From: Leishmania martiniquensis
Taxonomy: Eukaryota > Euglenozoa > Kinetoplastea > Trypanosomatida > Trypanosomatidae
DNA length: 64,000 bases
NCBI RefSeq assembly: GCF_017916325.1
Contig: NC_090153.1
Span: 307,501-371,500 of the forward strand
Reading direction: 5' to 3'
Shown here: positions 12,547 through 64,000 of the stretch, piece by piece
Position numbering within the stretch: the first letter of the stretch is position 1
Layout of the letters: each line of letters begins with the position of its first letter
Translations under genes and position numbers: made by a program
Notes under the pieces: model-generated
What the model saw: only the letters and a program-made list of their open reading frames with translations
Told to the model about the DNA's origin: nothing
Databases searched by the model: none

Positions 12547-12575
12547 TGAGCTACAGTGAGATCGCAGTGTGCGCA

Positions 12576-12597: not shown

Positions 12598-12684
12598 CGA
12601 GAGGGCGGCGGCTGCGGCGACAAAGAAACTGAAGGGCGAAAAGCGGAAAGGTCTCTTAACAGAAGCTGCTCAGCTGCAGTCACA

Positions 12685-18706: not shown

Positions 18707-18733
18707 CTCTCCTCCCCCTGGCACACACACACA
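18707..18733 (+). promoter_or_regulatory. Possible trans-splice acceptor for RPB5
   Basis: A short C/T tract followed by (CA)n and AG at 18732-18733, 25 bases before the RPB5 ATG. An upstream alternative is the longer C/T tract at 18299-18330. Confidence 0.4.
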
Positions 18734-18757
18734 GGCATACCTTCAAGTGACTTCATC

Positions 18758-20015: not shown

Positions 20016-21038
20016 ATGTCTTCGATGGAAGAGCTCAAGACGGTGCGGCTGTTTCGCGCACTCAACACAATGATTCAGCTCTGTCACGACCGCGGCTACA
20101 TCATTCGACACCCATCGGCAATCGCCGAGGCCGTGCAGAACCCGAAGCTCTACGACAAGGAGGAGGGGCTCGACTATCACTGGTTCCTGCGTCACTTTGT
20201 CATCTCGCCGGACCGCGTGGCGGGCAGCACACGCGCGAAGAAAGGCGGTGGAAATGGCAGCAGTAGCGGCCCCAGGTCCGAGTTGAAGTACGAGGAAGGC
20301 GACGCCGACGCCGAGGGGACGGGCGGGTGTGATGAGGCAGTTGACGAGGCCGAGATGCTTCGTCGCGCGGCGAACGGGGAGTGGGTGTGTATGCGCAACG
20401 CCATGCGACTTACCTGTTCCGTCGACCCCCGCCTCGCACCGCCAGCGCCTGGCGTCGCCCAGGAATCTCAAGCGAACACGGCTTTCTCCCCCACACCAGC
20501 CGTCAAGGTGGCGCCAAAGGACGGCGGCGCGCCGCACGCGGGGTTGGACGGTGCTTCGGACATAACGGCGAAGGGCAAGGCAGCAAAGAACGCGCTCATG
20601 GTCTTCTTCTCCGGATCCCCAAAGCTCACCATAAAAGAGGTGCAGACATTCCGCGAAAAGGCACTCAAGAAAAGGGCGTCTTCGATGATCATCGTGACGA
20701 ATAAGGTCGACCCCGGTGTGCGCATGGATGTCCAGGAGCTCAGCGGTCGCATGGACGAAGCCACAGGAGCGGAGCTGCTCTCTATTCAAGTATTTGAGGA
20801 AGAGGCGCTCGCGTTCAACGTTGTGCAGCACGAAACTGTTCCACCCCACGTCGCCCTGAAGCCCGCCGAGGCCGAGAAGTTCCTGGCAGAGCAGAAGCTA
20901 AGCATTGCCCAGCTTCCCCGCATGCAGGAAAGCGACCCTCTTGTTCAGTATCTTGGCCTACGTCGCGGCAGCATCGTGCACATCGCGCGCGAAGGGAGAC
21001 AGGGCGGCCCCTACAGCATGTACCGGCACGTCATTTGA
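20016..21038 (+). CDS. RPB5z: Divergent RPB5 paralogue (RPB5z), likely RNA polymerase I-specific
   Basis: 340 residues from the ATG at 20016. The N-terminus matches the RPB5 jaw domain (LFRALNTMIQLCHDRGYI). The C-terminus keeps the assembly-domain signature in weakened form: VVQHETVPPHVAL, LPRMQESDPLVQYLGLRRGS and a final YSMYRHVI in place of YVTYRQVV. Between them, residues ~70-180 hold an Ala/Gly/Pro/acidic insertion absent from the neighbouring RPB5. Kinetoplastids are unusual in having two RPB5 genes, and the z form was found in RNA polymerase I in T. brucei. Pol I assignment here rests on that knowledge. The tandem location directly after RPB5 fits origin by local duplication followed by divergence. 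Confidence 0.92.
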   Translation: MSSMEELKTVRLFRALNTMIQLCHDRGYIIRHPSAIAEAVQNPKLYDKEEGLDYHWFLRHFVISPDRVAGSTRAKKGGGNGSSSGPRSELKYEEGDADAEGTGGCDEAVDEAEMLRRAANGEWVCMRNAMRLTCSVDPRLAPPAPGVAQESQANTAFSPTPAVKVAPKDGGAPHAGLDGASDITAKGKAAKNALMVFFSGSPKLTIKEVQTFREKALKKRASSMIIVTNKVDPGVRMDVQELSGRMDEATGAELLSIQVFEEEALAFNVVQHETVPPHVALKPAEAEKFLAEQKLSIAQLPRMQESDPLVQYLGLRRGSIVHIAREGRQGGPYSMYRHVI

Positions 21039-45200: not shown

Positions 45201-45346
45201 AGCCGTACGTGCCGATGGTTATCCCATCGTGGGCAAACGCGCACGAGAAGGACGATTTTCTTGCGACACTGCGACTGCTGCGGCAAATGCAGACATTTCT
45301 CGTCTCGGCGCAGACGGAGCCGAAAAGCGATGTGTCAGAGAGTTGA
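39296..45346 (+). CDS. Large helical protein with long low-complexity inserts; possible AP-5 zeta relative
   Basis: 2016 residues, not firmly recognised. Conserved-looking helical blocks are separated by Gln, Ser, Gly and Ala-rich linkers. Blocks: residues ~14-110 (ITAELRNEFYPLLSTLASCG, YVMELFFTLARFDAVLKAKE), ~480-515 (ARAWERMFWRFLDGL), ~690-715, ~808-850, ~975-1000, ~1295-1350 (RGELALLLFRLLSIVLDWLM, WLFYRKWCCDLYRVLC), ~1550-1590 (LITRLVAATLRGIDADIAES, LLWVVGQ) and ~1810-1880 (VAKLYLSTLDDAEVFLSPHD). Glutamine runs occur near residues 255, 645, 855 and 1180. The order of the first, the LLWVVGQ and the 'LSTLDDAEVFLSP' blocks resembles, by eye, the N-terminal helices and the 'WAIGEYL' and 'LLK...AQFVLTP' parts of AP-5 zeta. 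That match is weak and unverified; a kinetoplastid-specific protein is the safe description. Confidence 0.75.
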   Translation: MASGAGSTGGSGSALLPTITAELRNEFYPLLSTLASCGSDISATYVMELFFTLARFDAVLKAKERQLFVSTAQQLITRLLQQLQKVHRRRQLLDENERFVGELVERCAALECLCSARDGDGYCHSNDGEDLGDVDISRQAVSAASVQDDVVDERVDGGETVLSAAAASRRRASPSATYTGSTIVAQETRRFSFDNNLDHLVGQTLLQRSRQQQQRKADSGGNVRSISAATTEGGEATTALSTPSSFPQRHLQPPPPLQQQQHSGPRPTSRLHHAGQAHSSATPPRAQGTVTTEQTTGRALDEEVSRVAAASSSFAGAAAPTDVTSAVYSGVQYALQEHFRNNVRHTLTGSALTAPSSLNELVQQQLPQLRDTMTRPSSRSSEWVTAVDGGVGEADLGSAQQQQSLTLDPSLVSSPAPVLCPLSSPYIGSLPHANTSTISVAAEASGASTSNAVGVGAGGLFGPKTMSGFSALYSPTTQEPVDTARAWERMFWRFLDGLTATGDLAVLLTLLCRGNAAQTQGTVAPAPTTCGFFAGHKSSLGAGRGGPAKNAASSTDAVRASSKSLAASSLTAKCGVQLLMEELKRSGTYSRLLPTAKASQVLNSSAAAGAGTTGAVGPKDEAAGSSVVTKGERETRVGEPERQQQQHARDAPRSLAAQTRTPVGGVPSAGSHPSNGNSTVLLNLSDLAREEELRLHRDFWTHIPAILSTLTEGVMYSGSHSTVSPDENSSNAPCATSSGCGEVTGLEASHDGNFDWGAAPIHGDANGNGREDGQLDDLKVGAGVTDAEGDEGNALAALHLPSTEALQLLPIFAPLLRNYTDGVRQLMRTAPEYARSIQAQHARALAVAAAASAQQQQQQSALLSPNYDNVTATGGECPLEREHSATVSTSSASAPLSTARAGQARTVPQSFLATHMQELRESHTLPSGGDRRPAGGGGGGATAAAATGCGSNPNSPAPAGIAEHSLLASGSCTEVRAVDVFVYALVTAIYVQCSMAVAMQQQQRARVNATGCAMEAPTFATVEEGAANVKSTFSEGGRTPSGRCSPQMNWQGPAAPFDVGTGGASSNINASMLTEEDRALDQNLANASLSNTGVGESSWWWNGSLLGGLRDGAGGGGYSLSGSFSLPPSTLFRPYLHSLHPMTLRDSGAGGGGTEGHMGSGSFRGPRSSPPLQAHVNHQQQQQQQWSQPLTNFSFDVRYSVTDAALSLLRVAHEMKSSGSAGSDGPSAANYGRGSSFGLRILCEKLHPIEFATQDIVACANDFSWVSLPSLMKAELQHLQEQLRDASHAIQRMEGQVRGELALLLFRLLSIVLDWLMPAVYVADPRVWLFYRKWCCDLYRVLCTDAALLEEFRRLLNQSGLAVGSAAAADASGLQRRRGGSTREVNERSGAKTRSATSVPTLGLQRGPPLFPGSGMAPSPPQARSTMASALVAAGAAAASGSGSQGTSTGCIAREGAIVLTDRASQHPSVSCASPAADDASAATSASIEDASSFILPGSSLTVSVSHESPPLQPGGPNFLAQEEADHRGEAVGGTASLRAAQALLSDGGTVVPLLCPFLITRLVAATLRGIDADIAESLLWVVGQATATDDAAGECLESGTVEDASGLLGGARRSRSVSSGAPQNRRAPGVSGRGLQSDGEHRGTRSGRHADEGEEGLSAAHQRHCGHVAHRTSSGHRLPAHPHRSGARYHRSSSADARVGSGAAATAVSHYAFDSEDGDGGYGDHWYGVLEDRERGKMASAPLQNRFMATGPERAMAGGAASASPALPHTTSRTPFSKRASTGGSQHLPLPSQPSDGPTLVHHHRFRYPSVDGYADVAKLYLSTLDDAEVFLSPHDPVYASLVLSAADLHLHDLRDTATAAALVSAYLVDVGEEHIQGPVWEELPAVLIGSEVSGDIASSLNAASHAAGSASSTPPAPGRGFSVTRARQGNTQAPTTSVAASSNAAGVDSGPAAAASSSQAAAPPPQQPYVPMVIPSWANAHEKDDFLATLRLLRQMQTFLVSAQTEPKSDVSES

Positions 45347-47076: not shown

Positions 47077-50000
47077 ATGCGCCGCACCGATCTGACTTCG
47101 ACGCCCCAGAGTACGGAAGGCAGTGGGGCAGCCGCGCGGAGCGACGATGCCGTTGCGACGGTGTTTCCGGAGGACCCCGTCGCCCCTCCTTCATCCTCCG
47201 TTCTCTATACGCTCTTGCAGGACCTGGGGCTGACGGCTACGGCGCAGGCCCTGCGTGAGGAACTCCTGCGGCAGCAGTCACGCGTCGCACTGCCGTCGCC
47301 TCCTTCCCTGCCGTCGCAGGCGAGCGAAATCTTTGTAGCGTTATCTCATGAAAACGGAGCAGCATCCCCCAACTCTCTTGCCGCGCTGCTGTCACCGCCG
47401 CGTTCAGCAGACGTATCACCTCCCCAAGGTAAAACCGCAGACCCAGCATCCTCCTCCGTCGAGCCACTGCCAGGTAGCGTGCAGTCGTCGCTCGCGGCGG
47501 GGGCGCCGCAGCGCGACGTTCGTATGTCATCCGGCACCATCCCTGCTGGCGACATCGCAGCGGAGCTTCAGCGCAAGCTGCAATCGTACTGTCACCTCTC
47601 CCAGTGCGCGAAGGTGATCACTGGCCTCGCTGCCAGCGCGGTGGAGCCGCTTCTTGCGATGTCGCCTGCCTCCACAGCAGCCACCACCACACCGCTGCAG
47701 CTTGTCGAGACGCTTACAGATATATGGCACTCAGAGAGGCGCGCCGCTCTTCCGCATCGCGCAACCGCTGGGAAGGCCGACGCTGCTCTGGCGGCCGGGG
47801 TGCACAGCCACCGAGCCAGAGATTTCGAAGTCGCGGCTCTTATTGCACGCGCGGCATGGTGTGAACTGCGCATCACAGAGCTCGTCTTCATGCAGGAAGT
47901 TCACCTGGCCCACTCCTCCACTGCGGCGACGGCTCACTCTGTCGCTACGAAGCCACTGAACGAGGCCCAATGTGAGCTAGTGGATGTTGCTGGCCAGCTG
48001 GTGACGGCGTTGCAGGAACTACGCACAACCTGCGGCGCCGCGGCGGCGCGGCGGCGTGGCGTGTCTGCCCCTCCACAGGATGCCTCAGGCACCTCTTCCA
48101 TCCCTGCGGGTGTCGTGATTGCCTCGTCAATCGTATCTCGCCTGCACAGCAAGTCCGTTGGCTGGCTGCGCAACGCCGAGTGCATCATGGCATGGGTGCT
48201 ACGCCGCCAGGGCGCTTTTGATATATCAGCAGAGGCTGCGCAAGCGTCGTCGTGTGCGCAGCAGCAGCGCAAGCGACGGTGCCTTGAGGCAAGCACCACC
48301 TCTACATTCACGGAGGGCCCGCCTGACCCGGTGTGCTGCTGCGCCGCTTCGCCACTTCTAAAGCCTCTGCAGGATGTCATCCTAGGGCTCCCCACCGACA
48401 CCTCCGCGCCTGCGCCGTCCTACCAGCAGTGCCTCGAGGCTGAGATCGCACGGTCAGCGGCGGCAACGGTGAAGAGCGAAGCGGCCTCACTGATCGAATC
48501 CGCCCCGGTAGCGGTTGCCCGCGATGAGTGTGCTCTCTTCTCCTCCGTCCGCATCCCAATCACCGTTCGGGTAGCGATGACGGTGCAGCGCGTGAAGCTG
48601 CTGCTCACCTTAATCGGCGCGCTTCTGTACAACGGCGAAGGCTCCATTCTCTGCGTGCTGGAGGATGTCGCCGCCGATAGTATTCGCTCATGGTGGATGC
48701 GCCAGAGCGCGATGTCGGCACAATTCCTGGTTCAGTGCGCGCATCAGCTGAACAGCATTCTGACGCCGTCCCTCGCCCACTCCTCTGCTGCTGCGCAGGC
48801 CTCTCCGCCATCACGGCATCAGGCCCTGTCTGCCGCGTCCGAGGCGGCGGTGCACTCCCTGCGAGAAGAGCTGGAAGCGCTGGCAAAAGAGGTGCTGCTC
48901 TGTGCATGTCCGCTCGCATGCATCGCACCGCCAGTACGGCAGGACAGCCGGCTCGACCTTCTCGTGCGCTTGATAAACGCTCTCCAGCAAGCCCACGATG
49001 CTCGTGCGGCACATCTCGACAGGTATGTGCTGCAAAGTTGCACCACCGCTGCGGCGAACATCGCCATATCAGTTAGCTCGCCCCTCTCTGCAGCAGCCGA
49101 CGTGTTTAGCCCTCTCTCCAGCGTCAGCAGCCCCACGCTCGGTAGCGAAGGCTCGCCTATCACCTCCCCTGAGTGGACTGTGCGCGTGCCAAGCCCGTTC
49201 GGCTTGGACTTGCGCGGGGCCACCGGCCATCCGACGCCCCCCGAGCAGGCGCCTCAGAGCAGCATTGGCAGCGACACCAGTAGCATCTCCGACTCACTAG
49301 AGGCTGCCCGCACTGCTGCTCAAGTCCTCCAATGGAAGCCCCACTTCACCCAGCTCCTCGCTACCATTGCAACGGGGCGCTGGCAGGCTCAGCATTACGC
49401 GCCGCAGGCCCCGTACCCTGGCTCCCGGTACCACCGTTTGCGCCTTCGCATGAGGGATGCCCTGCGGCATGCACAAGAGCTTCTTCGGCTGCAGCCACGT
49501 CTGCAGGTTGGGGCGCGCGGTGTCGTTTATCCGCCCCACCCCGCCCTCGGCAGCGACCCGGACCCCGGCGTCTCGCTCTCCTTGGTAGAGCAGATGCCGT
49601 GCGTGCTGCAGCTGGCCACGCTGCAGGACGCCCGTGTGCTGCAGCGGCGCGTGGGGCGTCGACTGGCTCGAGAGGCGAGGTCTGATGAAGTCCATGCAGC
49701 ACCCGCAGAGAACAGCGCCAGTAACGGCGGGGGTGGGGATACTGCACCAGCATTAGCGGCATCGTTGACAGATCGGCGTGCTGCTTCACCACCCTCAGTC
49801 TCACAGGCGCGGACGGCTGGCTGGAGCAACACCACCAGTACAAGCGGGTATCGCAGCGCCACTTCAATGCTGGCTGCAGCCACCGCGACGGCGCTCGGAC
49901 GGCCTCCCACCGCCACCGCGACGGATGGTCCCACGGCGTCACATCGGGCCGCGTCCGGGAACGAAGGGCGCGTCGCCACCGCCACCTCCACCAGCGCGAG

Positions 50001-53000
50001 GCCGCCAGAAGGGCAGAGAAGCGCGAGTCCGCACGGAGAGGCGGATGCAGGCGAGCGCCGTGCTAACGCGTTAATGGCGCCGTCCTCCGAACCCGCTACA
50101 GGGACGGCGGAGCTGGAGTCATCACCCCCGCAGCCAGCGCCGTCCGAGGCGGTGTCCAGTCGTAGTAGCACGAGCCACGCCGACGCCGAGACAGACTCCT
50201 CGGCCTTTGGCGTGGCGGCTGCCGCCGTGGCCGTCTCACCGGAGCCGCAGTGGGGAAGCGATGGCGAAGGGCAGGACGAAGACGAGGATGCAGCTGATGA
50301 CCCGCAACTTGAGCGCTGGCACCTACACGGCGACGAGGCGCAGGAAGAGCTGGAAGAGGCTGACGAGGAGGCGGCTGCCATCGTTGACGATGACGACGGC
50401 ATCGACTGGGCGCAGAGCGATGGCCAGGAAGAGGAAGACGACGAGGAAGGCGCGGAAGAGGTTGGGTCCCAGGCGTCCTCAGCAGACATGGACTACGAGC
50501 GTGCCGAAGATGAAATGAAGGAGGAGGTGGAGTGCGTCGAGGCGACGCCGGATGGGCGGCTGCTCGCACTGCTCACGGCGCGTGGACGGCTCATGGTGCT
50601 TCGAATGCAGGCCCACGACTCCACGTGGCACTACGAGGAGGAGGTGCTTATCGACACCAGCCTTCCGAACATGCCATCACGCGAAAAGCGGCTGCAGTGG
50701 TACGAGTCGCTGAGCTCCTTCGTGCACTTCTCCCCGTGCCGCCGCTTCCTCCTCGCCGCGGTACAGTTCGCCGCGGTGGAGCTGAAGCCGAACTCGACCT
50801 GTGCGATGGCCCGTGCGGCGAATGGAGGCACTGGGCAGCTCAACGTATACTCGCTCCATCGTGATGGCGACGACGGCGAGGAGGCCGCTTGTAAGAGTCG
50901 CGGTGATCTCGAGCAGGAGGACGACAGCAGTGCGTCCGCAGCGATCGGCGGTGCCCGTGAGCGCCTTCGTCGCCTGGTCGGACTCACCACCGACCGGCTC
51001 TACGGAACCTTCTGTCCTCACGACGGGCCCTGTCTGTCGGCACGCTGGGTCGACACGCGCTGGTGGGGAGGCGGTCGCCGCAGCCGGTGGGCTAACAGCG
51101 CCGTCGAGCCGCTGAACAGCACGAACGCGGCGGCCACAGTGCTATTGCAGAGTATGAAGGCAGGCGACTTGGCTGGGAAGAGCACCACCACCACCGCCTT
51201 GTCCGCCAAGGACTCGGTGGCGCACAGGATGATGCCGGAGAGTTGGCGCGCGGCAGCTGGCGTGCTGCTGAGCGAGTACCAGTGCATCTCTCTCGGCATG
51301 GATGACCTCATCCTACGCTGGTTGCCGGCGTGCGGGGTGGTGTTGCAGCGCATTTTGACGGAGCCGGCGCAGGACATCATCGTGTCGCCTCTCATGGCTG
51401 CCTTCTACGTGGCGAGCGACAACGGCGACCTCTATATGTACGACGCATGGGATGAGCGCAGCATGACGGACGGCCACCCCTGTGGCTCTGGTGAAGACGC
51501 AGACCCATGCGACATGTACAGTAAGAGCCCGAGCACCACGCAAGCTCACCGCCTTGTCCTTCCCGTGACGGAGGAAGGCCACCCGCGCTTTCATCGTGTC
51601 GGCCGCATGCAGCACCAGCACCAGTACGACTACTCGACTGCGGCATCAACGCGCTCACCACAGTCACAGCAGCAGCAAGAGCGGTCTCTGCGCCGTGACA
51701 CACTGGATGACCCTGATACAGCGGATCAGGTGCAATCCAACCGCTCTTCCGCACACTATACGGGTCCAGTGACGCCGGTGTTCCAGCGTTTCGTGGACCC
51801 GTCGAGGGGGATGTCAGGATCGCAGTCGCACACGCCGTTCTATCCGCATCATCCGTACTACTACGACAGCGGCGCGGCAGTGCAGGGCGGCTTCTCAGAC
51901 AACGACGAGGACTATGAAGAGGGGCATGAAGTGGCGCAGTCGCGCCTGGGAGGAAAACCGGCAGAGGAAAGCACTCGCCAGAAAAGCAGCGGCCAGGCGA
52001 AGGCGGGCGCCGACAGCGTCGGATGGACAGCGCTTCCACGGCACCTGCGCTGGCTGCTACCTCATCAATGGGCAGCGCACACGCCGTGGGATGCGCAGTT
52101 GGGTCGCCGACTCATACGCCATCTGCTGTGCCACACCCGCGCCGCCACACCCGCCGACATAGGTGAACTATTCTACGAACGCGACGAGGAGACGGCAGCC
52201 GTTGGGGCGGCCTCGGCGGTGGAAGCTGATGAAGGCGACCAGCCGTCGCTGATGGACGAACGAGAAAACCTCTACGATGCGCGTGGTCGCCACCGTGCAC
52301 GCCTGCACGGCGCAAGCGGCGGCGCAGCGGTCAGCGTGCATGACGAAGAGGGTACCACGTATGGCACAAGCGGCAGTCGACAAGACGTCTCCTCCGAAGA
52401 CGAGCACGGCAGCTGTGACAGCGCCGAGCGGGAGTACGCGTACACGAACGGCGCCGACTACGACGACGACGACGATGGCGCCCGCCGACCTCTGCCGTCG
52501 CGTGTGATGAACGGGGGGGGGCGCAGTCACATCTCCAGCGAAGCGGCCGCTGCCGCAGCGGCCGCCACAAAAGGGGTACCGGTGCCTGTGCTGGAGTGTG
52601 CTGCACACCCGACGCCTGCGCGCGGACCGCTTCAGCGGGCATACTACCCCAGTGGCGCCTGCCTCGTGTACAGGAGCGTCGCAAGGGCTCTCTGCAGCGC
52701 TGGCGACCTCACAGATCGCCAGACGCAGAGTGAGATGGGTCCCGGCGGGGCGACGCACCATTTGCTCTCCATGGCCTTCTCCGGGGAGCCGCAATGGCGG
52801 GCAGGGCAGCGGCTGTGGAGCCGCGAGGCAGAGGAAGCAGGGGCGCCGCAAGCGTGGCAGCGCCTCTCCCCTCAACGCAGCGCGGCGGTCGACCACGGCG
52901 ACGCGCGCGACGGGACGCAGCTGCAGCAAGGCGATGGCGACACCAGCGCCGACTCCATTGCCGGGCCATCGGCGCCGCTCACGCTGTGGTCAACAGCCGC

Positions 53001-55587
53001 GCTGGCTCGCGTGCTCCTATGGAAGGACTACTTCAGCACATCTCGTCACCTCGCCGGCGCCAAGGCTGAAGCGTGGGCAGAGTGGGAGTCTGAAGTACTC
53101 GCCACCACGTACCATGCGGACGTGTTGCCGCGATGGTACACTCGCCACGCAGGGAGCTCGACGGAGCCACGCTGGTCTGCGACGGAGTTGCTCGCTGTAC
53201 GGGGATACCTGGGCCCTCGTGACGCGTGGCGCCGCTGTGCGCCTGCATCACAGCGTGGCTTGGCCGCCACGGCCCGAAACGGTCGGTATCTCTGCATCAT
53301 GGCCTCTGTCGGTCCGTACCGCAAGCTGGTGAACCCTCGCGAGCCTCTGCGCGACATGCCTGGCTTCTATGCGAGCGTCGTGTTCGACGTCTACGCGGGC
53401 GCCGTGCTGCGCGTCATCCCGGTTTGCCCGACGGAGCTCAACGGTCTACGCGGTCAGTGTATGTGGACGTCGGAGCGTCACGAGAGCGATCCCAAAGCGC
53501 CGATCTACCGTCTGCCGTGCACCGTCACTGTGGTACCTCTGCCCCCCGCATCCGCAGCCACGGCAACAGCAGGAAAAGTTGCGAGTCTGTCGTCGCCAAC
53601 GAGGGCGCGCGCGGACTCGAACGAGTCGCCGACGAGGCTGCTGTTCGACAGAGGCTTACCATCTGCTGCACTGTGCGACGAAGGTGTCGTGGACGACGAG
53701 GAGGATGGGGAGCCGACGGAGGTGGTCACGCTCACGGTTGGTGGGCTCGGCAACTGTATCTACGTTTTCGACGCTCTCAGCGGCCGACGTCTCGTGCACG
53801 AGGCGGAAACGGCGCGACACTGCGGCGAATCCGCGGCGGCCGCCTACGAGGCGTCCACACTGTCGGATAAGGCACGGTCCAAAGCTCGAGGCGCGCGGTC
53901 CGCGGGTGTGCGGCGAGACAGTGCCGCTGTGTTACCTTCCGTAGCGGCGGCGAGGCCAGGTGCGCCGTCGTCGCTCCCGCTTACCGCAGCCTCCCCGGCT
54001 CTCCCTGCGTCGATTCGGAAGCCGGCAGACGTACTTGTCTCCGTCACGACGTGGGGTCGTGGCACAGGTTTCGACGGCATCACAGACCGGCCATCCACCA
54101 CCTCCAGCCCATGCCCGTCATGGATGCGTGAAACGGGCACAGGTGAAAGCAGCTCCGTTACGGCGCAGCCAAGCCACCTCACCACTTCTGAGACGCAGGC
54201 CGCAGCAGCAGCAGAAGCCTTAGCAATGTCTGAGGCGGTCGCCCGGAGTGGTGCACCAGCGCCGTGGCTGCTTCAGAGAGCCGCCCCATCGGAGCTGTGC
54301 GGGTGGCATCTGCGCGGGATTCTCTGGTGGGTGCACGAGCACCCACAGCCCTCCACGCTGTACGGAAGCGACGCCGGGAGCGCGGTGACGGAGCGAGAGG
54401 CGCGTTGGAGCGCAGAGAGCGTCTTGGCGGGCGGAGCGGGGGCGCGTGTAAGTGGTGGCCGTGTGAAAGGAAACGGCACCACCCGTGCCGCGAGCGGGCG
54501 CGGGCAGGGCGCTGTGAACCGCGCCGTGACGCCGTCGCTGTCGCCCGCCTTCACCACGTTGGCTGCGAACGCGGCATTCACATTTTTCTACCAAACGCTG
54601 CTCGGCGTGGCGGGCGGCACTGCGCCGACTACCGTCTCAGAGGAGTCACATTCCCGACGGCAGCACACTGCCGAATCCTCCACCGCAGCCCTCGGCGCGG
54701 CAGCAGCTGGCAGCCCTCATCGCACCACCGGCGTTGGGTATCCCTCCTACGGATTCGTGTGGCGACAGCGTCGGTGTCGCCTGCTTCAGCGGCTTCTACG
54801 CCACTACGACGTGGGAATGCTCTGGCAGGCGTACGTGGCCCTGTTTTGTGCGTCGACGACAGCGGCGGGTTCGCTGGCACCGCAGTCGGCAGTCTGCGCG
54901 CTTGTGCAGTGGGCTCTGTCGACCGACAAGGCGGCCACAGCCGCCGCGGCTTTTCTTGGGCCGTCTATCGGTCACACACGATGGATCTGGTGCCGAACCC
55001 CGTCCCCTCCAGAAGGTCGAAAAGGCGCCTCCGCGCCATCGAAGCAGCTGCACCTATCCGGAGGCAGGGTGCGGCGAGCGACCGCGCGCAGCCACGACGT
55101 CGAGCACGATGATGTGGGTCGTGGAGGCGCCAAGGCGGGACTGCAGGCCCGCAGCACAGTGCCCTTCGCCTGCGTTCTTCAGCAGCGTGAGGAATTCGTG
55201 GCGGAGCTGCAGGCATTGGATATGCAGCAGCAGCAGCAGCAGGCGACTGGAAGCATAACAGCAACGTCGCTGGCGCGGTCGATGGCGAGCGTCCAGGCGA
55301 AGTCGCTTCTCGCTAGCGTACGCGCCCAAGCCATGGTGGAGGGCATGCTCCCTCTCAACGCCAAGGGACGTGGCGCGCAGCAACAGAGATCTGTCGCAGC
55401 GGCAGCGACCCATGAGTCAGCATCCTCTGCAGTGGTCAAACTGCCGCCCTCGCACCACCAAAACCAGCTCCATGTGGACGTTGTGAACTGTGTGGCCACG
55501 TGGCTCGACGCCAATGGTGGCTTTTACGTTTGCTGTGGCTGTGAGGATGGCGGATTGTACATCATGGGCGGCTGCGTGACGGATTAG
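47077..55587 (+). CDS. Giant LisH-motif protein with acidic linker and divergent beta-propeller
   Basis: 2836 residues from the ATG at 47077. Residues ~42-66 form a LisH motif (LYTLLQDLGLTATAQALREE), a dimerisation element common in WD40 and ubiquitin-ligase adaptor proteins. The next ~900 residues are mostly helical with Ala/Ser-rich linkers. A highly acidic region (residues ~1065-1152, many Asp/Glu) precedes WD-like strands: ECVEATPDGRLLALLTARGR, SSFVHFSPCRRFLLAAVQF, YQCISLGMDDLILRWLPACG, AAFYVASDNGDLYMYDAWDE, VTLTVGGLGNCIYVFDAL and, at the extreme C-terminus, GGFYVCCGCEDGGLYIMGG. These probably build one propeller split by very long inserts, including a Gln run near residue 2720. LisH plus propeller recalls DCAF-type CUL4 substrate receptors, but no DDB1-binding signature is evident. 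Function is unknown. Confidence 0.8.
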   Translation: MRRTDLTSTPQSTEGSGAAARSDDAVATVFPEDPVAPPSSSVLYTLLQDLGLTATAQALREELLRQQSRVALPSPPSLPSQASEIFVALSHENGAASPNSLAALLSPPRSADVSPPQGKTADPASSSVEPLPGSVQSSLAAGAPQRDVRMSSGTIPAGDIAAELQRKLQSYCHLSQCAKVITGLAASAVEPLLAMSPASTAATTTPLQLVETLTDIWHSERRAALPHRATAGKADAALAAGVHSHRARDFEVAALIARAAWCELRITELVFMQEVHLAHSSTAATAHSVATKPLNEAQCELVDVAGQLVTALQELRTTCGAAAARRRGVSAPPQDASGTSSIPAGVVIASSIVSRLHSKSVGWLRNAECIMAWVLRRQGAFDISAEAAQASSCAQQQRKRRCLEASTTSTFTEGPPDPVCCCAASPLLKPLQDVILGLPTDTSAPAPSYQQCLEAEIARSAAATVKSEAASLIESAPVAVARDECALFSSVRIPITVRVAMTVQRVKLLLTLIGALLYNGEGSILCVLEDVAADSIRSWWMRQSAMSAQFLVQCAHQLNSILTPSLAHSSAAAQASPPSRHQALSAASEAAVHSLREELEALAKEVLLCACPLACIAPPVRQDSRLDLLVRLINALQQAHDARAAHLDRYVLQSCTTAAANIAISVSSPLSAAADVFSPLSSVSSPTLGSEGSPITSPEWTVRVPSPFGLDLRGATGHPTPPEQAPQSSIGSDTSSISDSLEAARTAAQVLQWKPHFTQLLATIATGRWQAQHYAPQAPYPGSRYHRLRLRMRDALRHAQELLRLQPRLQVGARGVVYPPHPALGSDPDPGVSLSLVEQMPCVLQLATLQDARVLQRRVGRRLAREARSDEVHAAPAENSASNGGGGDTAPALAASLTDRRAASPPSVSQARTAGWSNTTSTSGYRSATSMLAAATATALGRPPTATATDGPTASHRAASGNEGRVATATSTSARPPEGQRSASPHGEADAGERRANALMAPSSEPATGTAELESSPPQPAPSEAVSSRSSTSHADAETDSSAFGVAAAAVAVSPEPQWGSDGEGQDEDEDAADDPQLERWHLHGDEAQEELEEADEEAAAIVDDDDGIDWAQSDGQEEEDDEEGAEEVGSQASSADMDYERAEDEMKEEVECVEATPDGRLLALLTARGRLMVLRMQAHDSTWHYEEEVLIDTSLPNMPSREKRLQWYESLSSFVHFSPCRRFLLAAVQFAAVELKPNSTCAMARAANGGTGQLNVYSLHRDGDDGEEAACKSRGDLEQEDDSSASAAIGGARERLRRLVGLTTDRLYGTFCPHDGPCLSARWVDTRWWGGGRRSRWANSAVEPLNSTNAAATVLLQSMKAGDLAGKSTTTTALSAKDSVAHRMMPESWRAAAGVLLSEYQCISLGMDDLILRWLPACGVVLQRILTEPAQDIIVSPLMAAFYVASDNGDLYMYDAWDERSMTDGHPCGSGEDADPCDMYSKSPSTTQAHRLVLPVTEEGHPRFHRVGRMQHQHQYDYSTAASTRSPQSQQQQERSLRRDTLDDPDTADQVQSNRSSAHYTGPVTPVFQRFVDPSRGMSGSQSHTPFYPHHPYYYDSGAAVQGGFSDNDEDYEEGHEVAQSRLGGKPAEESTRQKSSGQAKAGADSVGWTALPRHLRWLLPHQWAAHTPWDAQLGRRLIRHLLCHTRAATPADIGELFYERDEETAAVGAASAVEADEGDQPSLMDERENLYDARGRHRARLHGASGGAAVSVHDEEGTTYGTSGSRQDVSSEDEHGSCDSAEREYAYTNGADYDDDDDGARRPLPSRVMNGGGRSHISSEAAAAAAAATKGVPVPVLECAAHPTPARGPLQRAYYPSGACLVYRSVARALCSAGDLTDRQTQSEMGPGGATHHLLSMAFSGEPQWRAGQRLWSREAEEAGAPQAWQRLSPQRSAAVDHGDARDGTQLQQGDGDTSADSIAGPSAPLTLWSTAALARVLLWKDYFSTSRHLAGAKAEAWAEWESEVLATTYHADVLPRWYTRHAGSSTEPRWSATELLAVRGYLGPRDAWRRCAPASQRGLAATARNGRYLCIMASVGPYRKLVNPREPLRDMPGFYASVVFDVYAGAVLRVIPVCPTELNGLRGQCMWTSERHESDPKAPIYRLPCTVTVVPLPPASAATATAGKVASLSSPTRARADSNESPTRLLFDRGLPSAALCDEGVVDDEEDGEPTEVVTLTVGGLGNCIYVFDALSGRRLVHEAETARHCGESAAAAYEASTLSDKARSKARGARSAGVRRDSAAVLPSVAAARPGAPSSLPLTAASPALPASIRKPADVLVSVTTWGRGTGFDGITDRPSTTSSPCPSWMRETGTGESSSVTAQPSHLTTSETQAAAAAEALAMSEAVARSGAPAPWLLQRAAPSELCGWHLRGILWWVHEHPQPSTLYGSDAGSAVTEREARWSAESVLAGGAGARVSGGRVKGNGTTRAASGRGQGAVNRAVTPSLSPAFTTLAANAAFTFFYQTLLGVAGGTAPTTVSEESHSRRQHTAESSTAALGAAAAGSPHRTTGVGYPSYGFVWRQRRCRLLQRLLRHYDVGMLWQAYVALFCASTTAAGSLAPQSAVCALVQWALSTDKAATAAAAFLGPSIGHTRWIWCRTPSPPEGRKGASAPSKQLHLSGGRVRRATARSHDVEHDDVGRGGAKAGLQARSTVPFACVLQQREEFVAELQALDMQQQQQQATGSITATSLARSMASVQAKSLLASVRAQAMVEGMLPLNAKGRGAQQQRSVAAAATHESASSAVVKLPPSHHQNQLHVDVVNCVATWLDANGGFYVCCGCEDGGLYIMGGCVTD

Positions 55588-57153
55588 TTGCGCCCGCACG
55601 GACTTGCGTATCCGAACGACGGGTGAGCAGGAGAAAAGGCAGGGAGGCGGCGCGCCGAGGAAAAGGCTGTGGGAAGAGAAGCAGTGCGCTCTATCCCCTC
55701 CCTCTCTGTCTGCCTGTCTCCTCCCCACCCTCTGCCCCCCAGCCTGTCTCTCGAGGTCCTTCCCCCTATTAGCTCTCTGCGCTTGCGCGTCCGCGCCGTG
55801 TTCTTCTGCACGGCTTCTGCGCGTGCGCATGTAGTGTGCTGGTATGTACGTGTGCAAGTGTCTGATCGCGAGTCAGAGAGACAGAGAGAGAGGGCGTTGG
55901 GGATGGAGGACGGGCGTGGGGGTCGTCTTGATCGTTGCTGTTATTTGTGTATACACGCACCAGAGACCTGTGGCCGGTCTGCTCTTCGATGGCATTCGTA
56001 CCCGGCATCAAAGTTGCGTCTCCCCACCCCATCTTTTTTCTCGCCAATAAAAAACGACGGCCCACCACCACCACATCCCCTTTCCTCCTATTATGTGCCT
56101 GCCTGCTGTGTTTTCAGATGTATCCCCCCGCCCCCACCCCCTGTCATCCTCTCTGCCGCTCTGTTGTATGGCGATCGTCGTTGTCGTGGCGGTGGTGTTG
56201 GCCCGCTTGTGTGTGTGTGTGTGTGCTCCTCTTCTTTTTTTTGTGCTCGCGTCACCTTGTCTCGCTCCCTTTCCTCCCCTGCCCTTCCCTTTCATATGCC
56301 CCACCCCCGCTCCCCTGAGCCGCGTGCTGATCCGAAGACACGCACGCGCACAGGCGCTCACACACTCGCATACATACATACACACACACGCACGCGTCCA
56401 TCTGAAGACGCGGAGCCATGCCGTAAGCCAACAGGCTCCGCCGCCGACGTGGCAGTCGTGGCCGCATCTACCGTCCTATCGCTCTATCTGTGCGTATGCA
56501 TCTGCACGAGCGAGCGAGAGAACACACGGGTCAGACGAAATCGGGACCGGCGAGTGTGGAAGGGCGCGCTGAGTCTCTCACCCTACTTGGCCGCCCCGCC
56601 CTATCCTCTTGCCAGCGCCTTCTTCCTCGGGTGCCACCAGTGTGATGACGCCTGCCTCTGCTTCTCTTTCCCACCTGACACCCCCTCTCACCTATCTTGG
56701 CCTCCCCACCACACCCACCACACATATGGCTTGCCCTGATCTGATCGGCATTGCATCGTACAGCCGCCTCTCCCCATCAAACGCGTCAGTACTGAAAAAA
56801 AAACGACGAGGGCATCGTCTTTCTAAAGTGAATTTTTTTCGCGGAAGGAAATCATTCGCTGCTCGAGTACGCACGTGTGTGTCCGTGCAAACGGCCCGCA
56901 CAGATCTCAGCTGTTTAGTCGCTTCCTCCTTTGTGGCGCAGGGGCCCAATCCGAACGCGGTAGAGAACAGCGAGAGAGAGGAAGAGAGAGGGGGGACGCC
57001 CGGCCTCGATCACGTGCGCACGCGCGACAGGCTGCACCTCTGCGCTCGGATTTCCTTTACCGTACGCCCACGCCCACCACCCCTCTTCACGCGCTCCCCC
57101 TCCCCCCGTCCACACATACACACACTCACACCCCATCCTGCACAAGAGCCGTT
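55588..57153 (+). other. Intergenic spacer, 1.57 kb
   Basis: A 356-codon frame (55669-56739) is open here, but it translates CT/CA repeats (HTHT, SLSL) and has no recognisable domain. TG near 56208-56222 and (CA)n near 56360-56395 are present. A C/T plus CA stretch ends in AG at about 57146, a likely acceptor seven bases before the next ATG. Confidence 0.6.
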
Positions 57154-59667
57154 ATGGCGAAGGTGGCCCACCCGTTATCGTCTGCAGGCGACTACCTCGT
57201 CAGGACGCTTGCGGACATGACGCACATGTCGTGCTTCCGCAAGCACGTGTGGACCAAGATGCAGGTGGCAGAGCGGCATCGGCTGAACGCGCTGCGGATG
57301 CAGGCGCTCTACGGCAATGCCCCCGTGTCGCTTTCTGCGCGTCGAAGAGCCTCGAAAACGGCAGGCGGCACCACCTCCGCCGGCGCTGTAGACGTAGCGA
57401 GTGAGACGGCGGTGCGGTGCTCTTCAAAGCACACATCACCAGATTGCGCCGCCTCCCGTAGCGCCGATAGCGTGGTAGACGCCTCCTCGCGGCCCCCGGC
57501 ACCGCCGCGGTGGTTCGACATTGCCGGGCGCGCCCGCTATTCAGCGTGGGAGGCGCTACGCGGGCGCTTGTCTGCCGATGTTGCCGCCGAATGCTTCTGC
57601 GCCGAGGTTATCGCCCTCGTGCGGAAGTATCCACATCCGACGCTGCTTCACCGGGTCGAGGCTGCCCTAAGCACTGCCCGTGAGCTTGCCCGTCGCAGCC
57701 GCGTCACGCCTCCTTTCACCGCCACCGCTCCATCGCCGTCGTCCACGGCGGTACTTCAGGTACGCGCGTTGCAAGGAGACCCGGCCGCTTTGGCTATTCT
57801 GTGGATCTGCCGCGCCTGCCGGCTCCCTTGCGAGTTCGTCGTGGAGCCGCTGTCGAAGGCCCTCGGAACACACGCAACGGGCGCTTCCACCAGTGCTGTA
57901 CTGGCGGGTGTAGCCAAGTGCGGCGAGCCCGCCGGCAGCGGCGGCCCCACTGCGCCGGCAGCCACCAACCCATATCTGTCCTACACGATGGCGGATGCGT
58001 GCTACCCGTTCACCATGTCGCTGACGCAGCCAGCCGATGCAGCCGCAGGGGCGTCATCACCGACGACAACGACTGTGACGACCCCCGAGGCGGCCTTTGT
58101 GCTTTTGGCGGACTCATTTCTTGCGGAGTGCCCCCTTTGGATAGGAATGCACGCCGAATCGGCCCGCGCAGCCACCCTGCCACCGGCGTCGCGCCTCGTC
58201 CAGCGGTGCACCTGGTGGGAGGAGCTTCAGTACATCACGCGTCATGTGCGGACACCGATTTTGGCCCTCCTGGTGCACCAGGCTACACAGCCTCAGCGGC
58301 TACGCCGCATGAGTGCTTCCGTCCCTGCAGCTGAGCGTCGCCATCTTCTCCGTGCCGTGGCGGCGCACCTGCACACCTACGAACGATGGATCATGGATCG
58401 TGTGCTGTCCCGCCGCGTCCATCAGGCGCACAGGGTCCTCTCCCCGCTTCTAGCCTCCACCGCGGTCGTTGACTGCCTCCGACGCGCGTACGCGCCAGAT
58501 GCAAAGGTCGTCAGTGCGGCGGACGCATACGTGTCCAGCTGCGGCTACACGCTCTGCACACACCCCTTCTGCGCCGACGTGTTCCCGCATCTGCGGGTTC
58601 CGCCTGTGCCCGACACGGCTCTGCAGGACGTGGTGCACGCGCATTGGCCGTCGCCAGATCGATCGCCGAGCAAGCCGCTGTCGCAACCGCCGACGGGGAG
58701 TACCGCTGCCCCCTATCCGCCATGGGCGCTGCCTCTGCAGCTCTCGGGCATCCCGGCCGAATACAACCAAACACTCAACCGACTCCTGCGCCGTGAAGCG
58801 GATGGAGCCATGTGGCAGCAGCAGCAGCCGGTACGCCTGTTTATGAACTACGGAAACGAGGCGGACGCCGAGCGCGGTCACAGCGGCAGCGCCAGTAGCG
58901 GTGGTGAGCGCAGAGCCATGATCGATGCACCCACCACGCATCCACAGCGGCAGGAGCTGTGTCGAGCTGGCTACTATGCCATCAGTGCGTCAAGCATCAC
59001 GAAGGGCGCGGCCGAGGCAGTCGAGCAGCTGATGCTCGCTCGCATGCTCTCCCTGCGCACAGATGACCTAAACGCCGACGCCAGTGCTGTGGGCAGCACC
59101 AGCAGCGTGAGCGGGGTGCCGTTTCTCGTGCTTGGTCACGTGTTTGCGCTGACGTGGGCACTGTGTCAGGAGCAGTTACCCGCCTTCCCATACTTCATGC
59201 TGGATGGTCATCCCAATCACTACGGGGGCTTCTCATTTCTGTACGAGCGCGCGGAGGAGGCAACGCCGCCATCATCCCCCGCGCGCGCTCAAGGACGCTT
59301 TCAAGTCGCGCTGTCCCCGGCACCGACGACGGCAATCGTGCCCACGGCAGACCCCAGCGCCTCCATGTTGCCAGCCATTGTCGGGGGCACCTCGGCTGTG
59401 CCCTCTGCCTCCAGCCAGGACGGCGGTGTGAGTCTCGAGTCGCGGCTGAGGTACGGCTGGCAGACCGTCGTGCGGACGCTCGCTAAAAGGGCTGCGTCGC
59501 GCTCCGGTGTGCGCTGCTCGGCGGATGAACCGACGGGCGCTGGTGGAGACAGCGATCAAAGCGCCGGCGTGCACGCCACACACGTTCTGCGCAGCGAAGT
59601 GAATACTGCCGGTGCGGCTGCTCCCACGGCGTCCAGTGCAGCAGTCAGGACGACGTCGCGGCTGTGA
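57154..59667 (+). CDS. Protein with N-terminal degenerate acyl-CoA-binding (ACBP) domain
   Basis: 837 residues from the ATG at 57154, which follows a CT/CA acceptor region; upstream codons are translated UTR. The N-terminus matches the acyl-CoA-binding fold when a ~55-residue insert (about 60-112) is removed: ALYGNAPVS (residues 51-59) lines up with the ACBP 'YKQATVG' helix, and AGRARYSAWEALRGRLSADV (124-143) with 'GKAKWDAWNELKGTSKEDA'. By this by-eye alignment the ligand residues Tyr28, Lys32, Lys54 and Tyr73 of bovine ACBP become Gln50, Gly54, Arg128 and Cys147, so acyl-CoA binding may be weakened or lost. The remaining ~680 residues are unrecognised: helical, His/Trp-containing, with a Ser-rich C-terminus and no clear membrane span. 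It might be a lipid-linked trafficking or Golgi protein, as for other large ACBD proteins; that is inference. Confidence 0.7.
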   Translation: MAKVAHPLSSAGDYLVRTLADMTHMSCFRKHVWTKMQVAERHRLNALRMQALYGNAPVSLSARRRASKTAGGTTSAGAVDVASETAVRCSSKHTSPDCAASRSADSVVDASSRPPAPPRWFDIAGRARYSAWEALRGRLSADVAAECFCAEVIALVRKYPHPTLLHRVEAALSTARELARRSRVTPPFTATAPSPSSTAVLQVRALQGDPAALAILWICRACRLPCEFVVEPLSKALGTHATGASTSAVLAGVAKCGEPAGSGGPTAPAATNPYLSYTMADACYPFTMSLTQPADAAAGASSPTTTTVTTPEAAFVLLADSFLAECPLWIGMHAESARAATLPPASRLVQRCTWWEELQYITRHVRTPILALLVHQATQPQRLRRMSASVPAAERRHLLRAVAAHLHTYERWIMDRVLSRRVHQAHRVLSPLLASTAVVDCLRRAYAPDAKVVSAADAYVSSCGYTLCTHPFCADVFPHLRVPPVPDTALQDVVHAHWPSPDRSPSKPLSQPPTGSTAAPYPPWALPLQLSGIPAEYNQTLNRLLRREADGAMWQQQQPVRLFMNYGNEADAERGHSGSASSGGERRAMIDAPTTHPQRQELCRAGYYAISASSITKGAAEAVEQLMLARMLSLRTDDLNADASAVGSTSSVSGVPFLVLGHVFALTWALCQEQLPAFPYFMLDGHPNHYGGFSFLYERAEEATPPSSPARAQGRFQVALSPAPTTAIVPTADPSASMLPAIVGGTSAVPSASSQDGGVSLESRLRYGWQTVVRTLAKRAASRSGVRCSADEPTGAGGDSDQSAGVHATHVLRSEVNTAGAAAPTASSAAVRTTSRL

Positions 59668-60575
59668 TGTTTGTTGGTGTGACTGTAAGAGTGTGAGTTG
59701 AAGGAAGGCCATGTGCCACCAAAGCGAGCGGACAAGGAGAGTGCGAGGGAGGATACTGAGCGCAGCCTATCCTGCGACACTGCAGCTATCACCAGGAAGC
59801 GTTATTGTGGTCACGGCGGGCGGCGAAAGCGAGGGGGGAAGGGGGGAAGGGGACTGTGGGGCCTCCTGTGCTGTCTCCCATCGCCCACCTCCATGCAGTA
59901 GCGCGCTTCGGATGTCCACGCGCATGCGCCTCCCCCCTCTCCCAGCTCCTGGGCTCTTCTCGTCCTTGGCCGTTTCTCCCGCTCACCCACTTGAACTAAT
60001 GCACACGCACCTAGCAACTCTTTGCGCATCGTCGCCAGCACTGACCTACTGCAGCGGCGTCCCCTCTGGCACCTCGCACATCCCTGAGGTGCTGCTTACC
60101 AACCCGTCAACTCAGTACCCGCGTGCACAACAACACAGTGAGGGCTGCCGGAACTCCGCAGCCCATGTGACGCCTTCTTCAAGCCCCAGAACGGTGGCAT
60201 ACGCAGAAGCCAAGCACGAAAGAACTGCCGTCCACCGCGTGCACATGAACGGTCACCTATTCCGCACCCTCCCCTTGACGCACGCGTGCACGTGATACAC
60301 GCGGCCGTGTTCCTAAGCCATTCGCGCGGTCCTCCGATCTTCTTCGCCACGTACGCCTCTCTCAAATCTACTCCTCCCCACTCTGTCTCCCTCCCCTGCA
60401 CACACACACACATGCGCCATTATATTGACAAGCGTGTCCTCAGGCGAGCAAAGCGGGCCGTTCTGTGTTGGTTTCTCTTTCCCTTTATTGTGTGCTCGCC
60501 TCCGTCTTGGGCCCGCACCATTCCCCTCACACACCCTCCCCTCCCCCATCCCCAGGCCACAGCCCTTCCACCTCG
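59668..60575 (+). other. Intergenic spacer, 0.9 kb
   Basis: A 194-codon frame (59711-60295) occurs but shows no domain and ends before the MHD gene's acceptor. G-rich DNA lies near 59832-59851. C/T and (CA)n tracts lead to the next gene. Confidence 0.6.
60520..60555 (+). promoter_or_regulatory. Trans-splice acceptor signal for the mu-homology protein gene
   Basis: The C/T tract at 60520-60553 ends in CCCAG with AG at 60554-60555, only 21 bases before the ATG at 60576. This makes a longer N-terminus with a longin domain unlikely. Confidence 0.55.
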
Positions 60576-62144
60576 ATGCAGCGGTTGCTGTCTCTCGCGG
60601 CCAAGGTTTCTGGTGCGGTGGTCGTGTGTCTCCTCGCCTATCGCGGCGCGCAGCTCTACTCCAAGAATGAGATACACATCTACATCACAGAGGTGGTTCA
60701 CCTGCCCACCACGGCGGCGCAGGACCGCCAGCAGCCGTCACCACAGCGCAGCGCGGCTCTTCGTCTCATCGTCGAGGGCACCGTAGAGATGGAAACGTGT
60801 GTCATGAACAGCTACCGCTTCCTGCTGAAATTGGCCGGCCACGTTAGGAGCTCCTTGTTCGACGCCAAACTTTCCGAACCGAGCCTGCGCAGTTCGCGGC
60901 GTCGCGTGCTATCCATGCACGCAAGCAACGCCGCAGTGGACAGCCCCTACTCCACGCCCCTTAGCGACACCTGCGGGTTTCCAATGTCGTCCAACAACAA
61001 CAGCAGCAGCGGCGGCGGCATTCGGCGGCACGGGCCGTCGCTCGTCATCACCTCCGTGGACCACATCGTCGACGCGTACGAGGCAGATGCCACGGGCGCG
61101 CTCGCCTTCACGCCGGCCTGCGTCGGGGACGGCGTGCTGTGCCGCTTCACGTGCGTCGCCTCGGCCAGCGTGCTCGAAGGTGGTGGCAGCGGCGGCATCG
61201 GGAGCGTCTTTGTTCGGAGCTGTTTTTTCGAGTCTGATGGCGTGACACCCTATGGCCAGCGGCTGACGATGGAAGTGGAGTTCGCGCGCCCCGTTTACGG
61301 CGCCCGAGTGCTCATTCGACTCCCCAACCGCCACTGTCGACTGCATCACAGCAGCACTGGTGGCGTCGGCAGCGTTACGCAACTCCTCCACCAGCCACGC
61401 AAGTGTGTGTGGGACATCGGCGCAGTGTCCGAGGAGATGTGTGCCGTGTCCGAAGACGGCACCGCCGCCCTGGGGGCGGCGGAAGGATTCATGGAGGGCA
61501 ACCAGATGCCCGGCGCTGTCGCCCCTACCGCGTCCTTTTCGCCGCCAACGAAGTCGCTCGCGAAGCTAGAGCTGGTCTACGAGCAGGCCCCGCCGGCACT
61601 CAACTTTGGTGAGGAGGACGCGGAGACAGAGCCCACGGATAGCGGCGACGACATGGATAATCGCTTTAGCAGCGCTGTAAGCAGCACCGGCAACACTGGT
61701 GGGGGTAGCTCACACAGATGTTGTCACCAATCGCTCAGTGGCAGGAGTAGTAGCAGCGCCCGGGGACGGATGAGCAGTGCTGGAAAAACAGTAGCAGCGT
61801 CGGCCGCAAACACCACAAGTCGTGCTCGCAAGCGCGAGGAGCGAGCGCGCAAGGCGATCGACAAAGCTGCTCGCATTCAGGAAGGCGGGGGCCGCAGCAG
61901 CACGCGGGCAGCTGGCGACGAAGACGTGCCGACCGTAGAGCTCGTATTTAGCGTGAATGAGCTTCTCTCCGGCACATCCGTGAAGAAGCTGCAGGTCGTG
62001 GCGGAACGACCAAACTGGGCCCCTCGCAGCCGGCTCGACCACCTCTTCCGCTGCGTCGTTCCGGGGCTCGAGAAGCTGAAGCTGAAGAAATACGCGCACT
62101 ACACAACGTGGTTTGTGCAACCCGTGGCGGTGTCACGGTTGTAG
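60576..62144 (+). CDS. Mu-homology-domain protein with N-terminal membrane anchor, no longin domain
   Basis: 522 residues. Residues ~11-27 are a hydrophobic segment (VSGAVVVCLLAYRGAQLY), likely a signal anchor. Immediately after it begins a mu-homology domain like that of AP-complex medium chains: YSKNEIHIYITEVVHL (28-43; cf. 'RRNELFLDVIESV'), VEGTVEMETCVMNSYRFLLK, GALAFTPACVGDGVLCRFTC (near 174; cf. 'ISFIPPDGEFELMRYR'), LTMEVEFARPVYGARVLIRL (near 230), RKCVWDIGAV (near 275; cf. 'NAIVWKI'), AKLELVYEQ, and VELVFSVNELLSGTSVKKLQ (near 453; cf. 'ISMNFEVP..PSGLKVRYL') with a final Trp-containing strand HYTTWFVQP. Ser/Gly-rich loops, one of about 90 residues before the last strands, enlarge it. The N-terminal longin half of true mu chains is missing. 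Relation to AP-5 mu or TSET-type MHD proteins is possible. Assignment is by eye. Confidence 0.72.
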   Translation: MQRLLSLAAKVSGAVVVCLLAYRGAQLYSKNEIHIYITEVVHLPTTAAQDRQQPSPQRSAALRLIVEGTVEMETCVMNSYRFLLKLAGHVRSSLFDAKLSEPSLRSSRRRVLSMHASNAAVDSPYSTPLSDTCGFPMSSNNNSSSGGGIRRHGPSLVITSVDHIVDAYEADATGALAFTPACVGDGVLCRFTCVASASVLEGGGSGGIGSVFVRSCFFESDGVTPYGQRLTMEVEFARPVYGARVLIRLPNRHCRLHHSSTGGVGSVTQLLHQPRKCVWDIGAVSEEMCAVSEDGTAALGAAEGFMEGNQMPGAVAPTASFSPPTKSLAKLELVYEQAPPALNFGEEDAETEPTDSGDDMDNRFSSAVSSTGNTGGGSSHRCCHQSLSGRSSSSARGRMSSAGKTVAASAANTTSRARKREERARKAIDKAARIQEGGGRSSTRAAGDEDVPTVELVFSVNELLSGTSVKKLQVVAERPNWAPRSRLDHLFRCVVPGLEKLKLKKYAHYTTWFVQPVAVSRL

Positions 62145-63384: not shown

Positions 63385-64000
63385 ATGGCATCGCACGGGA
63401 GCAGCGATGAGGAGGACGAGGATTTCAGCCCCATCATCCCCTCTGCCGCCATCGCTGCCTCTGTGGTAAACGGTGGAGCAACGGCCACCGCGTCCACCTC
63501 AGCAACAACCGGCGCCGACCCCTCTTCGCCCGAGTTGAAGAAGGCGAGGAAGGATGAGAGCGGGTCGCACCTCGCGACAACAACGAGCAGCATGGCTGCG
63601 TCTCCGTCACCGTCATCATCGCTTTCGACAGGTGCGGGCGACGCGACGGAGAGAGTAGCGGAGACGCCTGCAGCCGCATGGGAGCGATACCTGCGGCAGC
63701 AGCTGCCAGGCGCGCCTCTGTATGAACGCAGCTTTCTGCACACTTCGCTACAAGATGCACATGAGGCCTTTACCGCAGCGGCGCCAGCATCTGCGGGTGC
63801 CGTGCCTCGTGTGGCGGCGCAGGCAGTGCATGATGTGTGTGTCCATCTGGACTCCCTCGGTGCGCTGATTACCACCGTTGATGCAGCGGGCACGGTTCGT
63901 ATGTGGCGCAAGCTGCCGCGCGGCGTCCTCTTCATCACGGAGCTGGACAAGGTCTTCCCAGCCGCCCACAGCGCCGCTGCCGGCCATGATTGCCACAGGC
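63385..64000 (+). CDS. PPWD1: PPWD1-type WD40-cyclophilin, 5' part only
   Basis: The open frame runs off the window after 205 codons. A disordered, acidic/Ser-rich N-terminus (~105 residues) is followed by a segment matching human PPWD1: LPGAPLYERSFLHTSLQD (cf. 'LPSASMYERSYMHRD'), then a first WD unit, VHDVCVHLDSLGALITTVDA and AGTVRMWRKLPRGVLFITEL (cf. '[20 protein letters not shown]'). PPWD1 is a spliceosome-associated peptidyl-prolyl isomerase with an N-terminal propeller and a C-terminal cyclophilin domain. The cyclophilin part, if present, lies beyond position 64000 and cannot be seen, so catalytic ability is unknown here. In trypanosomatids such a protein would presumably act in trans-splicing complexes; that is inference. 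Confidence 0.82.
   Translation, partial: MASHGSSDEEDEDFSPIIPSAAIAASVVNGGATATASTSATTGADPSSPELKKARKDESGSHLATTTSSMAASPSPSSSLSTGAGDATERVAETPAAAWERYLRQQLPGAPLYERSFLHTSLQDAHEAFTAAAPASAGAVPRVAAQAVHDVCVHLDSLGALITTVDAAGTVRMWRKLPRGVLFITELDKVFPAAHSAAAGHDCHR

Follow-up and report, generated by a model that had tools for sequence, protein, structure and literature searches.

The window analysed here is the 64,000-nucleotide stretch at positions 307,501 to 371,500 of the forward strand of Leishmania martiniquensis contig NC_090153.1 (assembly GCF_017916325.1). Towards its end lies an uninterrupted plus-strand frame of 522 amino acids (aa), whose ATG is at 60576 and whose stop codon ends at 62144. A sequence-only reading had proposed that this gene encodes a membrane-anchored mu-homology domain (MHD), the domain that follows a longin domain in the medium (mu) chains of adaptor protein (AP) complexes, with the longin half missing. 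The open reading frame (ORF), its conservation, the hydrophobic segment, the MHD homology, the absence of a longin domain and the adaptin complement of the genome were all computed.

Conservation and N-terminus of the predicted protein

The 522-aa ORF had a single match at E ≤ 0.001 in the genome of 32.3 Mb, whose contig C18 contains the window. A protein search with the ORF yielded 16 sequences including the window protein. Eight of the 15 others carry an organism name (Leishmania sp. Namibia, L. enriettii, L. panamensis (LPMP_180870), L. tarentolae, Novymonas esmeraldas, Porcisia hertigi, Leptomonas seymouri and Leptomonas pyrrhocoris), and we take all eight to be Leishmaniinae. The known relatives are 513-598 aa long and share a common start methionine in 14 of the 16 aligned sequences; in P0016 the start is shifted downstream by one residue, and P0014 is annotated with 55 extra residues before the aligned methionine. 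A whole-family profile search added no protein beyond the 16 among 7990 scored candidates, a list probably filled, like the equally long one of the first search, by low-complexity words. A profile of the joined conserved segments, run against 4401 candidates, found nothing at E ≤ 10; that search had no positive control and accepted proteins of about 150-480 aa only, so that the known relatives themselves fell outside it. Given these size limits and the candidate filling, absence of the protein from trypanosomes does not follow.

No longin domain, which spans about 125-140 aa, could be encoded upstream of the ORF, because the in-frame opening before the ATG is at most 49 codons (open frame 571 aa versus 522) and contains no in-frame ATG. 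The G of the candidate spliced-leader acceptor AG at 60554-60555 is 21 bases before the ATG, and a second AG, preceded by the same long pyrimidine tract, is found at 60561-60562. The argument of the sequence-only reading that there is no room for a longin domain was thus borne out. Since the next in-frame ATG corresponds to residue 72, within the domain, translation beginning after the hydrophobic segment would remove part of the fold.

That a single hydrophobic segment precedes the MHD block was likewise confirmed in all 16 sequences, where residues 4-22 average 1.55-2.03 on the Kyte-Doolittle scale over 19 residues, compared with 0.97-1.45 for the best later segment of each protein (counted from the aligned methionine in P0014). 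Residues 1-26 show a mean majority identity of 73%, against 42-62% in six loops. The survey of the putative anchor across relatives found the segment in 16/16, within a set whose named members are all Leishmaniinae and in a search of limited reach towards more distant kinetoplastids. In most of the 16 sequences the segment has positive charges before and after it; the window protein has R3, K10, R23 and K30, and its first acidic residue does not come before residue 32. The alignment makes cleavage as a signal peptide unlikely, because the positions that signal peptidase would need are disturbed by Y22 (I in P0016) and by the variability of residue 25. Residues 4-22 may form an uncleaved anchor, with the MHD facing the cytosol.

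Evidence for a putative divergent mu-homology domain

The family was compared with six AP-mu MHDs aligned as a reference, namely mu1, mu2 and mu3 from Protein Data Bank (PDB) chains and three from this genome. The untrimmed family profile scored 24.7-30.2 depending on the choice of first row (E 0.004-0.023), and column shuffles reached neither 28.0 in 120 trials (maximum 26.2) nor 27.0 in 80 trials (maximum 25.6). When low-complexity loops were trimmed by hand, the score rose to 41.3-51.2 (E 8.6e-7 to 2.7e-5, probability 74-92%), which none of 300 shuffles attained in either of two tests (maxima 25.8 and 25.6). To guard against inflation of the score by this manual choice, trimming was repeated at four mechanical conservation thresholds, giving scores of 38.3, 26.7, 32.7 and 40.3 that were reached by 0, 1, 0 and 0 of 60 shuffles each. 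Addition of two delta-COP sequences to the reference lowered the score to 37.9 trimmed (0/100 shuffles) and 26.3 untrimmed (0/40). When the comparison was restricted to this genome's three mu genes, the full family profile matched over 30 columns only, in the expected register (E 0.048). In single-sequence profile comparisons the best match was mu3 (27.1) and the two delta-COPs gave no signal (14-15), in a set that held no mu4 sequence.

The six motifs quoted in the sequence-only reading were all found in the window protein in the order given. Its claim that MHD order is preserved stood for five of them, which hhalign placed at the expected positions of the mu1 MHD: YSKNEIHIYITEV on YRKNEVFLDVIEA, LAFTPACVGDGVLCRF on ISFIPPDGEFELMSY, VLIRLP on IHIPVP, CVWDIG on IVWSVK, and ELVFSVNEL...SGTSVKKLQV on SVKFEIPYFT...SGIQVRYLKI. 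The sixth, TTWFVQP, has no fixed register; in neither of two hhalign alignments is W512 paired with the mu C-terminal tryptophan. Colinear anchors extend across the whole domain: N31-E32 on the N-E of strand 1, G68, F178-x-P180, the W279 strand and S465-G466...V469...L472.

Two structure models reached moderate confidence only for about residues 155-290 and a strand near 326-337. In Foldseek, MHDs were the top matches of both models, with delta-COP best; the top chain, 5nzu_D, is titled COPI coat only and was taken as delta-COP since its aligned range equals that of 4o8q. MHDs also came first in one VIA-align run, with the fold match in subdomain B, and a third mu4 chain scored only 7.5 in structural comparison. 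Subdomain B matches MHDs in fold searches, and support for subdomain A comes solely from the colinear profile alignment; a complete two-subdomain MHD is thus putative. As the three methods disagree, assignment to mu3, mu4 or delta-COP was left undecided. Taken with the profile statistics, these models suggest that the original MHD assignment holds up, the window protein probably carrying a highly divergent AP-type MHD (Table 1). The basic helix listed there comes after the acidic stretch and ahead of the last strands, within one loop.

Table 1. Features of the gene and its predicted product, in window coordinates; residue numbers refer to the 522-aa protein.
Feature	Position	Strand	Evidence
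Candidate spliced-leader acceptor AG, predicted, behind a long polypyrimidine tract	60554..60555	+	Sequence
ORF of 522 aa, putative anchored MHD-like protein, relative of L. panamensis LPMP_180870	60576..62144	+	Frame and protein search
N-terminal hydrophobic segment, residues 4-22, signal-anchor-like, K10 inside, R23 and K30 after	60585..60641	+	19-residue hydropathy in 16/16; predicted helix 2-29 (low confidence)
Putative MHD strand 1 block, residues 27-46 (LYxKN...TEVxHLP)	60654..60713	+	hhalign register to mu1/mu2; 86% majority identity; unplaced in models
Putative MHD strands 2-3 block, residues 62-92; AP mu SGMP motif not kept	60759..60851	+	Conservation and hhalign; unplaced in models
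Block matching the FHxCV...FIPPDGEF...YR region, residues 153-196	61032..61163	+	Model 2 and hhalign
Putative inserted beta-subdomain B, residues 207-292, W279 on the mu Trp of IVWxI	61194..61451	+	Model (block predicted local distance difference test, pLDDT, 67-83, residues 207-286), fold matches, hhalign
Putative last strand of subdomain B, residues 326-346	61551..61613	+	Both models and hhalign
Variable in-domain insert, residues 347-450: acidic stretch, Ser/Gly-rich stretch, conserved basic helix	61614..61925	+	16-sequence alignment
Conserved basic helix, residues 414-437 (RARKREERARK...)	61815..61886	+	Model helix 414-436, block pLDDT 43-67; residues 416-424 at 89% majority identity
Putative C-terminal strands of subdomain A, residues 451-522 (VELVFSVN..SGTSVKKLQV..TTWFVQP)	61926..62141	+	hhalign; no confident model

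Adaptor complement of the genome

PF00928 matched four genes of the genome, with best PDB matches to AP-1 mu, AP-3 mu, AP-2 mu and delta-COP; the 522-aa ORF was not among them. The eight PF01217 matches, none of them on contig C18, were the longin halves of those four genes (one just under the cut-off) and four longin-only genes, which as a group we take to be three sigma subunits and zeta-COP. PF01602 gave 13 matches: eight strong (E ≤ 1.9e-66), a weak extra Adaptin_N match at C20:618099 that passes the cut-off together with its neighbours, and four under the cut-off. Counted as a set, the four MHD genes, the four longin-only matches and the eight strong PF01602 genes fit AP-1, AP-2, AP-3 and COPI. 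This agrees with published work in which Leishmania lacks AP-4 and AP-5, among the organisms surveyed, is confined to Naegleria (PMC3650584; PMC4977521). No spare partner set seems to remain that could serve a fifth medium subunit, the weak Adaptin_N match being the one possible exception, and on the subunit counts from the three families an overlooked tetramer with this protein as its mu subunit was considered unlikely.

A putative signal-anchored interaction module

The tyrosine-motif pocket of mu2 we take to consist of F174, D176, W421 and R423. F174 aligns to H34 (Thr in most relatives) and D176 to Y36, and the register of W421 and R423 is not fixed. Because the F174 and D176 positions are changed, a canonical tyrosine motif is unlikely as ligand of the MHD-like domain. 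These changed residues, together with the conserved basic helix behind an acidic stretch, favour a membrane-resident module with a different ligand. Our best explanation, to which we give a probability of roughly 0.5, is a signal-anchored, stand-alone MHD interaction module outside any heterotetramer. The gene would encode a single-pass membrane protein whose N-terminal segment (about residues 4-22) inserts as a signal anchor and is followed within a few residues by the divergent MHD, split by the insert between the last subdomain B strand and the final strands. Having no longin domain and no apparent spare large or small adaptin, it would stay outside the AP and COPI heterotetramers and instead reside permanently near the bilayer on the cytosolic side, where it would bind a peptide or partner protein, concentrating that partner or a coat at the membrane in a scaffold or cargo-receptor role, and the basic helix may contribute a membrane or partner contact.

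The lack of a curated-profile match, the low confidence of the models and one fold ranking would suit an unrelated beta-sandwich that resembles an MHD by chance. Pfam and NCBIfam searches (Pfam with all 16 members, a further profile search with three of the 16) gave no MHD match; PF00928 was absent among the five Pfam families matched at E ≤ 10 by any of the 16 members, a range in which most hits weaker than about 0.1 are lost to the HMMER filters, and a PDB sequence search gave nothing meaningful. The untrimmed profile match is weak, one of the four mechanical trims did no better than shuffles, and the C-terminal TTWFVQP is without register. Both models are of low confidence: the first strands are unplaced, the last strands are poorly predicted in model 1 and lie outside the model 2 fragment, and glycosidase domains ranked top for model 1 in VIA-align. 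A chance resemblance is nevertheless very improbable, given a colinear full-length profile match far above column shuffles and MHDs at the top of both Foldseek searches and one VIA-align run. Matches to CDC45 (four of the 16 members, best E 0.0012) and nucleophosmin (family profile, E 0.027, aligned over the charged insert) were read as acidic low-complexity.

The flanking positive charges and six cysteines that lie in the domain outside the insert and are invariant in 16/16 (75, 182, 189, 216, 254 and 289) also allow a mitochondrial or a luminal protein. The N-terminal pattern, with its charges and moderate hydropathy in every sequence, resembles known mitochondrial signal anchors, and the N-terminus could serve as a signal anchor or stop-transfer presequence for an MHD fold put to new use at the outer membrane or within the intermembrane space; this reading is doubtful, since the same pattern fits an endoplasmic reticulum signal anchor and we know MHDs solely from cytosolic coats. 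Alternatively, the n-region/h-region layout of residues 1-22 could be a signal peptide or type II anchor placing a disulfide-stabilised beta-domain, and no adaptor, in the lumen, which is quite improbable, as no N-glycosylation sequon is common to the 16 sequences and the signal-peptidase positions are spoiled as described above. It is improbable, too, that the protein is an AP-4 relict, that is, a divergent medium subunit whose longin half and complex were lost in the Leishmania lineage and whose MHD came to sit on a new anchor, comparable to the muniscins with their TSET MHD: Foldseek prefers delta-COP, mu3 is the best single-sequence match, and the third mu4 chain scores poorly.

To our knowledge, no MHD protein with a transmembrane segment has been described, and the MHD proteins known to us are found in the cytosol, from which longin/adaptin cores or F-BAR domains bring them to membranes. 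In the open-licence PMC literature we found no paper naming this gene or describing an anchored MHD. With the MHDs of AP-1 to AP-4 mu subunits (PF00928; compared with mu1-mu3), the window protein shares, in the profile alignment, the strand order, the starting N-E motif, the F-x-P hairpin, the tryptophan of IVWxI and the S-G-x-x-V-x-x-L near the end, and, in fold comparison, the fold of subdomain B; it differs in lacking the longin half, in its hydrophobic N-terminus, in escaping Pfam detection, in its changed SGMP and F174/D176 positions and in a long charged insert before the last strands. The delta-COP MHD is the best Foldseek match of both models, yet delta-COP has a longin domain and its two sequences gave no profile signal. 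Muniscins (FCHo, SGIP1, Syp1) are MHD proteins without a longin half, their MHD derived from TCUP, the TSET medium subunit (PMC4031984), which makes TCUP a precedent for MHD reuse; such medium subunits, likened here by description only, have a longin part according to the same source. In muniscins an F-BAR or disordered N-terminal part occupies the place of the roughly 20-residue hydrophobic segment seen here, and an F-BAR domain is excluded in the window protein, where only 26 residues precede the MHD block.

If the signal-anchored module is real, a constitutively anchored MHD would be a domain working without a cycling coat, a further case, after the muniscins, of an MHD leaving its tetramer, and an extra membrane component in a parasite group that lost AP-4. 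Tentatively, it could be the first integral-membrane MHD protein: an adaptor peculiar to this lineage that, being built into its membrane, does not cycle on and off, in which a signal anchor replaces the heterotetramer and which may be the surviving MHD of AP-4.

Neighbouring genes

The ORF directly upstream of the MHD-like gene (56875-59667) matches an acyl-CoA-binding protein below threshold (18.1 bits, against a cut-off of 28.3). Downstream, a long ORF of at least 1000 aa runs past the window end (63385-64000), and its first 205 residues gave no Pfam match; gene order points to a possible identity as the large cyclophilin CYP16, LmjF.18.0880 (PMC11357558), in which case the MHD-like gene would be LmjF.18.0870. 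Further upstream, ORFs of 2836 aa (47077-55584) and 2016 aa (39296-45343) have no Pfam match at E ≤ 0.001. Two adjoining RPB5-like genes lie at 18365-19459, with N and C domains, and 20016-21035, with the C and a partial N domain, and a long ORF at 12556-17769 carries a FAZ1 conserved domain together with a PDZ match below threshold.
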